Of a stretch of 23,735 bases of DNA, positions 18,986 through 22,268 are shown in pieces. Below the pieces are notes generated by a model. The model saw only the letters and a list, made by a program, of their open reading frames with translations. It did no database searches and was not told the DNA's origin. Source of the stretch: Candidatus Eiseniibacteriota bacterium (lineage in GTDB: Bacteria > JAFGKV01); contig JALOPK010000012.1 of the NCBI GenBank assembly GCA_025453925.1, forward strand, positions 1 to 23,735. Direction: 5' to 3'. Within the stretch, counting starts at the first letter, position 1. Each line of letters begins with the position of its first letter. Position numbers and translations under genes: made by a program.

Positions 18986-19495
18986 TCAGTCCGCCGCAGC
19001 CTTCAGCATGAGCTGGAGGGCTGAATAGCCAACCGTGTCAGAGATCTGTTCGACATAGCCGGTGTAAGCCGAGTTGTGGCTCATGATGGCGTCCTTCACC
19101 ATGAACGTCGAGAACTCCAGGTCCTTGGCTGCGTGATACGTCGCGAGAGCGCACATCACGGCGCTCAACCCCGTCACGAACACAGTGTTGCACTCCATGT
19201 CCCGCAGCAACTTCTCCAGCTCGGTCTTCTTGAAGGCATTGGGGTAGTTCTTGATGATCCGGGGGTCATCCGGCCGCACCGCCACACCGGCGGGGAACTC
19301 GAACGGTTCCGTGCCCGGTGCCGGGCCCCGCTGCGGATCTGTGTGGTAGACACGCACCACCGGGAACCCGTATTCCCGGAACAGGGCGATCGTCGCGTTG
19401 ATCATCCACAGGCCGACTCCCCGGTCCCGTTCCGGCACGTAGTTCAGGAATTCGTTCTGGATGTCGATGACCAGCAATGCGGGCTTCAGTTTCAT
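18986..19495 (-). CDS. Isochorismatase-family cysteine hydrolase
   Basis: 169 aa. The fold and catalytic triad of the isochorismatase-like family are visible: Asp11 in 'ALLVIDIQNEF', Lys82 in 'RIIKNYPNAF', Cys115 in 'VTGLSAVMCALAT' after the usual cis-peptide region, with 'HAAKDLEFSTFMVKDA' following. Members hydrolyse amides (nicotinamide, N-carbamoyl compounds) or isochorismate; the length and motifs do not settle the substrate. There is no signal peptide, so it is cytosolic. The ATG at 19495 has AAGGAGG 7 bases upstream, an excellent site. It stands alone on the minus strand. Confidence 0.9.
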   Translation of the reverse strand: MKLKPALLVIDIQNEFLNYVPERDRGVGLWMINATIALFREYGFPVVRVYHTDPQRGPAPGTEPFEFPAGVAVRPDDPRIIKNYPNAFKKTELEKLLRDMECNTVFVTGLSAVMCALATYHAAKDLEFSTFMVKDAIMSHNSAYTGYVEQISDTVGYSALQLMLKAAAD

Positions 19496-19938
19496 CTGGC
19501 GTCCTCCTTGGCTTGTCTGGTGAGTGTCGGCCAGCCAGCGTAGGCAGGCCGAGCGGGCTGGATGGAACAGACCGTGATCTGAGGTCCTCCTTTCGGCTCA
19601 TCGAGCGCGGGCCTCGGTCATCGGTCGGATTCGCGGCCCGGGAATGCGGAGCGGCCCTCAGCCAAGCGGAGTAGGAACCCATGGACGGAATGCCCGTCAA
19701 GTGGTGGCGGTGCAGGGGGCTCCCCCGCAGCCGGAAGTCAGCGGCGCCGGCCCATCCGGTGCGTCTTTCGGACACGGCGCCGGTTCGCGGCTCACCCGAC
19801 GCGACCTTGCTGCCGCGTGCTTCCTTTCCCTGGGCGTCTTCTCGGCGAATCGCGCGCACGTTTCCCCGGCACGGACGTTTCACGCGCGTGCTCTCCCGGA
19901 TCACCGCTACTCATGCTGGCGGGCGCCCGCTCGTACAC

Positions 19939-19964
19939 GCACTATTCTAATATTAGAATAGTGC
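19939..19964. promoter_or_regulatory. Perfect 26-bp AT-rich palindrome, operator-like
   Basis: Half-site GCACTATTCTAAT (19939-19951) is followed directly by its exact reverse complement ATTAGAATAGTGC (19952-19964). The core is almost pure A/T inside very GC-rich DNA. The form fits a dimeric regulator site (TetR/MarR/BlaI-like); as RNA it would also fold. It lies ~145 bp before the thioredoxin gene start. Confidence 0.6.
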
Positions 19965-20044
19965 ACACCATCCGTACTTTGACCGTCCTCGCTGGAGGGT
20001 CCCGGCACAGTCGACGATATAGAGGATGCCGGCCGCACGTGTGT

Positions 20045-20072
20045 TGCGCCGATCCGCGGATGAGGTAGTATT
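20045..20072 (+). promoter_or_regulatory. Promoter candidate for the thioredoxin genes
   Basis: TTGCGC (20045-20050), a 16-bp spacer and TAGTAT (20067-20072; four of six consensus bases). A start near 20079 would leave a ~30-nt leader ending in GGAGGAG before the ATG at 20109. The match is moderate. Confidence 0.4.
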
Positions 20073-20108
20073 CGCTGCCTTGGCCGTCACTCGTTCCCGG
20101 AGGAGTTC

Positions 20109-21611
20109 ATGCAACGATCGGTATCCTTGATTGTCGGCAGCGTGGTGCTGGTTGCCGCGATCGCGTGCCCCGTCTTCGGCAAGGAGTACTCTCTCAAATC
20201 GCTGAAGGCCGAGGTGGACGCAGCGGAATCCGCCGCGATGTTGCGCGCGGTGTTTCAGGACTACCTGGAACATGCGGTGGACATCGATGTCGCCCGAGCA
20301 TCCCAAGACCAGTGGAGGTTCCTGGACGAGCCGGGTGTGCGCGCGTTCGCCGAGAGTCTCTACCAGGCGAATGCCGACTCGGGCCGGTGGATCTACCTCC
20401 GCGGTCGGATGGCCTCGGCGCCCCTGGAGCAGATCGAGATTGGCCGTAGACTCGTCGCCATGCACCCCGAGGTGCCCTGGGGCTTTCGGCTCATCGTCGG
20501 CGCCTATGACCAATACCTCTTCGCCGACACCGGGGAGCAAGCTACCCGCAATGCGCTTGCTGCCGAATTGCCCAACGACCTGTGGTGTTTCCACGAACTT
20601 GCCGCCCTCCAGCCGACCCTGCCGCTGGCCGGGCTCGCCTTGTTCGACTACCACGTCTATCGTGGCGCGTGGGACAGCGCCCAGGCGCTCTTCGACGTGG
20701 CCCGCGCGGCAGGAGGCTCGTGGGCAGGCGAGAACAAGGCCCTGCTGCTGGCCGCCGGGCAGGGCCGGTACGATGAGGTTCTAGGGAAGGTTTCCGCCGG
20801 CATCGACACGATGATCGCCCATGGCGCCGTGGATCCCCAGCGGCGTGATGAGACGATACGCCGGCACTACGACGGCGTGCTCCGAGACGCGAAGGCCTAC
20901 GACGAACTGGTCCGCTATCTCGCGGCGTTACCCGGGGCCGCCACGGACCCCGGCGTGCTCTACGATCTTGCCTGCTACAGCGCCCTGGCAGGCCGTTCTG
21001 ATGAGGCGTTCGCCCATCTGGAAGGCGCTGTCGAGGCTGGCTGGAACGCCCTCGACCACACGCAAGGAGACCCTGATCTTGCGAGCCTGCGAGGCATGCC
21101 GCGATGGGAAGCGCTGATCGCGCGGCTCTCCCAAGCCGCCTCGGCAGTCCCGGAGGGAGAAGGGGTGGCGGGAGCCATAGGCGACACGCTTTCCACGCCC
21201 GCGCCGGACTGGGCGCTCGCCGACGTGCGTGGCGACACGGTTCGTCTGGCTGATCTCAAGGGATCAGTGGTCGTCTTGGACTTCTTCGCGACCTGGTGCG
21301 GCCCGTGCAGGATGGCCTTGCCAGTCCTGAGCCGTTATGTGCACGAAGCCAAGCCGGAAGGTGCGCGCGTCTACTCGATCGACGTATGGGAGAAACCCTT
21401 CGCCAAGGCGGAGATGCTGTGGGAGAGCGAAGGCCTCGGCATGACCTTGCTGAAGGGCACCGATGATCTCGGCACGAAGTACGGGTTTGACGGTATCCCG
21501 TTCATCTGCGTCGTCGACAAAGCGGGGCAGATCCGCGCGAAGTTCGCCGGCTACAGCGACGGCATTGACACGGAAATCGGTGAGGTTGTGGACCGGCTGC
21601 TGGAGGAATAG
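20109..21611 (+). CDS. Secreted TlpA-like thioredoxin with helical TPR-like N-terminal region
   Basis: 500 aa. A signal peptide spans ~1-24 ('LIVGSVVLVAAIACPVFG'). Residues ~30-350 are helical and repeat-like; one unit, 'LYDLACYSALAGRSDEAFAHLEGAVEAGW' followed by 'DPDLASLRGMPRWEALIARL', has the classic TPR-type end-motif pattern. Residues ~365-500 are a TlpA/ResA thioredoxin domain: 'APDWALADVRGDTVRLADLKG', redox pair Cys397-Gly-Pro-Cys400, and the cis-Pro loop 'FDGIPF'. It probably works in thiol-disulfide exchange in the periplasm or at the outer surface, with the helical part binding a partner (inference). The ATG at 20109 has GGAGGAG upstream. A second TlpA-like gene follows 123 bp later. 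Confidence 0.9.
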   Translation: MQRSVSLIVGSVVLVAAIACPVFGKEYSLKSLKAEVDAAESAAMLRAVFQDYLEHAVDIDVARASQDQWRFLDEPGVRAFAESLYQANADSGRWIYLRGRMASAPLEQIEIGRRLVAMHPEVPWGFRLIVGAYDQYLFADTGEQATRNALAAELPNDLWCFHELAALQPTLPLAGLALFDYHVYRGAWDSAQALFDVARAAGGSWAGENKALLLAAGQGRYDEVLGKVSAGIDTMIAHGAVDPQRRDETIRRHYDGVLRDAKAYDELVRYLAALPGAATDPGVLYDLACYSALAGRSDEAFAHLEGAVEAGWNALDHTQGDPDLASLRGMPRWEALIARLSQAASAVPEGEGVAGAIGDTLSTPAPDWALADVRGDTVRLADLKGSVVVLDFFATWCGPCRMALPVLSRYVHEAKPEGARVYSIDVWEKPFAKAEMLWESEGLGMTLLKGTDDLGTKYGFDGIPFICVVDKAGQIRAKFAGYSDGIDTEIGEVVDRLLEE

Positions 21612-21734
21612 AAAGGGGGTTACGGAGCGACGCGACGAGTCTGACTCTGGCCTTGTTCTGTCGTGTCGTCGAGATACGTTTCTCGTTCTGACTCGCGATC
21701 GATCCACGGCGCTGAACCGATCTGGGGGATCGCC

Positions 21735-22268
21735 ATGCCTGGACTGTGGGTTGCCGCTGTCGTCCTCTGCTTGCTCCGATCGAACCTCCAGGCTCTCCAG
21801 GTGGGAGATCGTGCTCCAACCTTCGCGCTCCCGCGCCTCTCCGGCCCCGACGTATTCCTTCGTGACTTCTGCGGCCGAGAGCTGCGTGATCCGGCGGTGA
21901 GACCACGCGTGGTCGTTCTCGATTTCTGGGCCACCTGGTGCGCACCATGCCAGAAGTCCCTGCCCGCCATTCGCGAGACAGTCGCGCGGTTCGACTCAAC
22001 AAGAGTCGTCCTGCTCATCGTGAGCGAGGATGATGCGAAGACGCAGTCACGTGTGGCGAGTATGCTTCTGCCGCTGGCAGGCAACGAGTACTGTGCGCTG
22101 GACACCTACCGCTGGGTCATGCGGGATCGTTACGGACTCCCGGCGATTCCAAGGACGTTCGTGATCTCGCCGCGTGGCAACATCGTCGCTCTCTTGGGTT
22201 CCCATGACAATACGGCCGCGCTGTCCGGCGAGCTGACCGGGGCCATTGGCCGTGCTTTCTCTGAGTGA
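21735..22268 (+). CDS. Secreted TlpA-like thioredoxin (second)
   Basis: 177 aa. A signal sequence covers ~1-20 ('LWVAAVVLCLLRSNLQA'). The mature domain starts 'VGDRAPTFALPRLSGPDVFL', with 'VVVLDFWATWCAPCQKSLPAI' carrying Cys69 and Cys72 and a cis-Pro loop 'YGLPAIPRTFVISPRG'. This fits a minimal TlpA/ResA-type periplasmic thiol oxidoreductase. The ATG at 21735 is preceded by GGGGGA; the open frame back to 21663 is not needed. It shares little sequence with the upstream thioredoxin beyond the fold (WCAPC versus WCGPC), so recent tandem duplication is unlikely. The two are probably co-transcribed. Confidence 0.88.
   Translation: MPGLWVAAVVLCLLRSNLQALQVGDRAPTFALPRLSGPDVFLRDFCGRELRDPAVRPRVVVLDFWATWCAPCQKSLPAIRETVARFDSTRVVLLIVSEDDAKTQSRVASMLLPLAGNEYCALDTYRWVMRDRYGLPAIPRTFVISPRGNIVALLGSHDNTAALSGELTGAIGRAFSE

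Follow-up and report, generated by a model that had tools for sequence, protein, structure and literature searches.

The operator of HipB has the layout TATCC-N8-GGATA, and small dispersed repeats (SDR) of cyanobacteria are very small (20-30 nt), dispersed, structured elements of a narrow lineage. SDR are cited in PMC3116915, together with the REP/REPIN sequences and their RAYT transposases; REPs are short, palindromic, extragenic and lineage-restricted, occur in tens to hundreds of copies, are able to form hairpins, and are found there as pairs with a spacer (PMC3116915). Bacterial stem-loops in general favour convergent intergenic spaces and 3' ends, paired DNA uptake sequences being included among those at transcript ends (PMC1590033).

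We analysed a perfect palindrome in a stretch of 23,735 nucleotides (the window; contig JALOPK010000012.1 of assembly GCA_025453925.1, GTDB lineage Bacteria; JAFGKV01), which is part of a draft genome with a size of 3.9 Mb, 502 contigs and a completeness of 82%. This palindrome belongs to a family that resembles each of the above systems in part. With HipB-type dimer operators it shares the layout (TATTC-N8-GAATA), independent half-sites and a pyrimidine-purine dyad, but there are about 70-80 near-identical copies beside unrelated neighbours, convergent spaces are enriched and about 40% of the copies carry arms. Like the cyanobacterial SDR, the element is very small, dispersed, structured and confined to a lineage; unlike in those repeats, neither nested insertions nor proven empty sites were seen, and several orthologous positions are conserved. 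The likeness to REP/REPIN (PMC3116915) covers the size, the palindromic and extragenic nature, the copy number, the lineage restriction and the hairpin capacity. However, no copy lies beside the inspected Y1 transposase genes, one symmetric core with constant spacing takes the place of paired REPs, and the hexamers are far better conserved than the centre, with variable arms. The copies are inverted repeats that favour convergent spaces and positions behind stops, as transcript-end stem-loops do (PMC1590033), but they have no T-run, their core is fixed, lone half-sites are not over-represented and the density is about one copy per 55-65 kb.

Results

Positions 19939-19964 of the window read GCACTATTCTAATATTAGAATAGTGC, two 13-base arms with 100% complementarity and no spacer; the perfect 26-bp palindrome claimed in a sequence-only reading of this DNA is thus real. 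A chance origin had been called very unlikely, and indeed about 0.001 palindromes with arms of at least 13 bases are expected per 23.7 kb at 65% GC, against 1 found. No other perfect palindrome in the window has an arm longer than 7 bp, and the 18-bp core is present there a single time and was absent from shuffled sequence. The setting is also as described, with a hydrolase gene on one side and two thioredoxin-type genes on the other:

18986..19495, minus strand: isochorismatase-family hydrolase gene, start at a distance of about 445 bp, divergent with respect to the palindrome
19939..19964, no strand: perfect 26-bp palindrome, core plus GC/GC arm extension (direct reading, chance estimate)
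19941..19962, no strand: 22-bp family core ACTATTCTAATATTAGAATAGT, the same as the commonest form of the family
19941..19950, plus strand: left half-site ACTATTCTAA, hexamer TATTCT at 19943-19948
19953..19962, minus strand: right half-site ACTATTCTAA, plus-strand hexamer AGAATA at 19955-19960
20109..21611, plus strand: gene of a secreted thioredoxin/AhpC-TSA-type protein, start about 145 bp from the palindrome
21663..22268, plus strand: second AhpC-TSA/thioredoxin-like gene

A scan at up to three mismatches, as had been proposed along with that reading, gave 66 matches to the 18-bp core in the window's own genome; further copies are present in the one same-genus genome compared (G001, a Candidatus Fermentibacteria MAG, JAFGKV01). 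With the central six bases left free, the own genome holds 69 copies at no more than one hexamer mismatch and only 11 more at two, a reversed-pattern control giving 8. G001 holds 76 exact copies, a number that rises to 137 when up to two mismatches are allowed (12 for the control). About 50 copies of G001 have one or two hexamer mismatches above chance, a tail that the own genome lacks. The same-family genome has no copy when up to one mismatch is allowed among the 16 fixed positions of the 22-bp core; at two hexamer mismatches there were 93 matches against 48 for the control, none of them exact, and a weak trace of the family there is conceivable. Other genomes gave the background level only. 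Among GTDB species genomes, the exact 22-bp core gave only JAFGKV01 and one isolated match, with A/T arms, in a Prolixibacteraceae MAG. As far as these data go (three genomes of the phylum including one congener, all draft assemblies in which counts depend on contig breaks), the family appears restricted to one genus among the genomes compared. A limited search of the literature on the phylum or the motif gave nothing useful.

Some copies stand close together. Overlapping degenerate pairs, with two palindromes 16 bp apart, are present at L218:1392-1425 and L198:8917-8950, and in L081:2737-2808 a further GC-rich hairpin lies between two copies that are 54 bp apart.

The anatomy of the core was determined on 120 distinct exact-hexamer copies from the own genome and G001. 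It has the form ACTATTCT-M-A-N-N-T-K-AGAATAGT, with almost invariant hexamers and a variable centre, mostly a pyrimidine-purine step; the consensus is (A/G)C-TATTCT-(A/C)-A-N-N-T-(T/G)-AGAATA-G(T/C). As the copies were found via their hexamers, hexamer identity within this set is partly a matter of selection of the copies, and the independent argument for constraint is the sharp drop in count at two mismatches relative to the control in the own genome. The choice of A or C at half-site position 9 on one side is nearly independent of that on the other, and this independence, together with the pyrimidine-purine centre, is typical of dimer sites. The spacing of the half-sites is fixed, with 0 matches having 7-37 bp between them, which excludes terminal inverted repeats of a longer element. 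Lone half-sites number 17 in 591 kb, about the value estimated from base composition; the single unpaired motif is therefore not over-represented, and a DNA uptake sequence was rejected. The family thus presents the two-fold symmetric, constrained half-sites at fixed spacing of a dimeric-regulator operator, and the site seems, on comparison of the copies, to be kept intact by selection.

Beyond the core, perfect Watson-Crick arms of at least 5 bp are present on 51 of the 120 copies, with copy-specific sequences, compared to a mean of 5.4 and a maximum of 12 in shuffled flanks. Arms of at least 8 bp occur on 20 copies, compared to 0.24. The remaining 69 copies exhibit no flank complementarity (z +1.9), none past 4 bp, and therefore two classes can be distinguished. 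There is no excess of G-U pairs in the arms, and pairing energies of the sense and antisense strands do not differ in tandem contexts, so that nothing points specifically to selection on single-stranded RNA. The predicted hairpins of the copies are stable. Read in the sense direction, the copies in tandem contexts show no T-run, and a canonical Rho-independent terminator (a GC-rich stem followed by a T-run) was therefore rejected. A known RNA family was rejected too, as there were no matches to Rfam covariance models.

Genes were called with our own codon-usage script, and gene starts are therefore approximate. In sampled DNA that is 82% coding, 117 of the 120 copies lie outside predicted genes and 3 inside. 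Both neighbours are known for 96 copies, of which 62 are in tandem, 24 in convergent and 10 in divergent spaces. Convergent spaces hold 25% of them, twice the 12% expected by intergenic length (P=0.0003), and divergent spaces 10%, half the expected 23% (P=0.003). Within 60 bp, 11 of 50 armed copies are behind a stop and 1 of 26 before a start, while unarmed copies show no bias (7 of 51 and 6 of 43, respectively). By nearest gene end alone, armed and unarmed copies do not differ significantly (P=0.15).

The families of 58 downstream and 80 upstream neighbouring genes revealed none recurring among the 25 commonest families listed, and 30 neighbour proteins viewed one by one had no common function. 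No coherent regulon was found among these neighbours, and the convergent enrichment likewise speaks against a location at the promoters of one gene set. At L061:2437-2964, a PadR-family regulator gene, whose product is a candidate binder, starts 36 bp from a copy.

Six copies are at orthologous gene ends in G001, with distances kept, hexamers intact and most flanks diverged:

L007/L130: inside the end of the DUF1731 epimerase gene, 24/25 bp before uvdE
L012/L090: 223/219 bp before a DUF2089-HTH gene, whose product is another candidate binder
L013/L036: 29/27 bp after a stop
L068/L098: 42/43 bp before a glycosyltransferase gene
L080/L123: 110/110 bp before mnmA
L063/L219: 249/251 bp before an alpha/beta-hydrolase gene

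The arms of L013/L036, both read towards the core, are CCAGGGGGAC and ATCCGGGCAC; they differ, yet each is fully paired. Long arms are absent from the remaining five pairs. The copy in L007:1501-1518 and L130:2941-2958 is in frame in the DUF1731 C-terminus, where it encodes Tyr-Ser-Asn-Ile-Arg-Ile and Tyr-Ser-Thr-Ile-Arg-Ile, respectively. A protein-coding repeat Tyr-Ser-x-x-Arg-Ile is excluded for the family, as this pair is the only conserved case. The majority of copies have no counterpart at the orthologous position in the sister species. Site-bearing loci are over-represented in the G001 sample; in the part of it not fetched for a copy, although some contigs there were chosen for a known copy elsewhere on them, a copy is present on 4 of the 18 orthologous gene sides compared to a 2% baseline, the distance being kept only in L063/L219 and two of the four sides flanking one and the same copy. 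Retention of copies thus exceeds chance, but most have turned over.

Longer repeat blocks, A and B, flank some copies in various combinations (A with the palindrome, the palindrome with B, A alone) at L060:1-300, L092:2651-2950, L051, L053, L048 and L143. Their homology ends at the palindrome or close to it, in the manner of a recombination or insertion boundary; L143 carries block A without the palindrome, and there the homology ends before the site. No clear gene emerged from the reading frames around the blocks. The own genome (G000) and G001 have eight Y1_Tnp matches; the loci inspected around four of them (L159, L161, L163 and L164) contain no copy, and linkage to Y1/RAYT transposases is excluded at these four genes.

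We then return to the locus itself, where the palindrome had been suggested to serve as the operator through which a dimeric repressor controls either the thioredoxin genes or the hydrolase gene that diverges from them. A functional-looking, constrained and two-fold symmetric site is retained from that suggestion; control of these genes is not. The copy does lie in a divergent intergenic space about 145 bp before the thioredoxin ATG, some copies keep short distances before starts (uvdE, glycosyltransferase and mnmA, above), and a PadR-family gene begins near one copy. However, about 70 copies stand beside unrelated genes, divergent regions are depleted (10 of 96) and convergent ones enriched. 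No sigma-70-like promoter match was found around 19939-19964, nor a terminator-like site in window positions 19400-20300. The best match to the thioredoxin protein in G001 has 62% identity over residues 32-500 and is cut at the contig end. A second G001 contig matches residues 11-118 at 59%, and may or may not be the same gene; it has no palindrome upstream of the thioredoxin start, and the upstream gene differs.

Discussion

The palindrome is best read as a copy of a genus-restricted, dispersed intergenic element, a putative dimer-bound duplex site at the borders of transcription units, to which we give a probability of roughly 0.4. The constraint on the hexamers, their unchanging distance, the lack of surplus lone half-sites, the near independence of the halves and the strand symmetry point to ACTATTCT-MA-NN-TK-AGAATAGT as a site recognised in duplex DNA by a two-fold symmetric protein. 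A dimer would bind this core, and its role would be global, over many transcription-unit borders, rather than that of an operator of one operon. Copies behind genes may have gained arms and so formed hairpins that stabilise RNA or resemble terminators acting in both directions. Such an added role there is suggested by the armed copies close to stops and by the arm changes on both sides of one orthologous copy; it would not be that of a canonical terminator, because the T-run is missing. Some observations weigh against a dimer site. A duplex-binding dimer does not need the arms seen on 51 of the 120 copies, no coherent regulon was found, and most copies are not orthologous. Convergent enrichment is unusual for the operators of regulators, as promoters are not expected in such spaces, and together with the unrelated neighbours it argues against ordinary operators.

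A serious rival to the two-fold site, although we consider it rather unlikely, is a REP-like or small-dispersed-repeat family, i.e. a palindromic element spread in the genus and moved by an enzyme in trans, with no role at its individual loci. The family has the properties of an extragenic palindromic repeat in many copies: tens of lineage-restricted copies, mostly not at orthologous places, with blocks A and B meeting or breaking at or near the palindrome, in a genus where Y1-type transposase genes are present. However, the four inspected Y1 genes have no copy within about 1.5 kb and no precise empty site was found. Moreover, the hexamers are intact while the centre varies, and the six orthologous copies keep both of them despite mostly diverged flanks.

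We regard as still less probable that the family is in essence an RNA hairpin at transcript ends, either a bidirectional terminator free of a T-run or an mRNA-stabilising stem-loop, whose conserved apex would be bound by an RNA-binding protein. Convergent enrichment with divergent depletion, the position of armed copies behind stops, the different yet fully paired arms of L013/L036 just past a stop and the stability of the predicted hairpins are all consistent with it, and the preference for convergent spaces and 3' ends is general for stem-loops (PMC1590033). Nevertheless, the 69 armless copies, the ten divergent ones, the missing T-run, the absence of G-U excess and of strand asymmetry, and the non-significant 3'-end bias by nearest gene end (P=0.15) stand against it, and an RNA stem does not require invariant bases on both sides.

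The dimer-site reading can be extended, more speculatively and at distinctly long odds, to a genus-specific boundary element, in which a putative dimer on the fixed core would mark borders genome-wide and 3'-end flanks would co-evolve into perfect, copy-specific arms. The outcome would be an element that, with the help of the protein and in the absence of a T-run, terminates transcription in both directions or insulates. A local operator of the thioredoxin or hydrolase genes is the least supported of the readings, and we consider it very improbable.

The presence of a highly constrained palindrome, restricted to one lineage, at dozens of borders between genes would imply a dedicated recognition protein in this uncultured phylum. 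With a fixed core and copy-specific arms, the DNA-site and hairpin roles may be separable, and the family lends itself to studying how palindromes at gene ends originate and persist.
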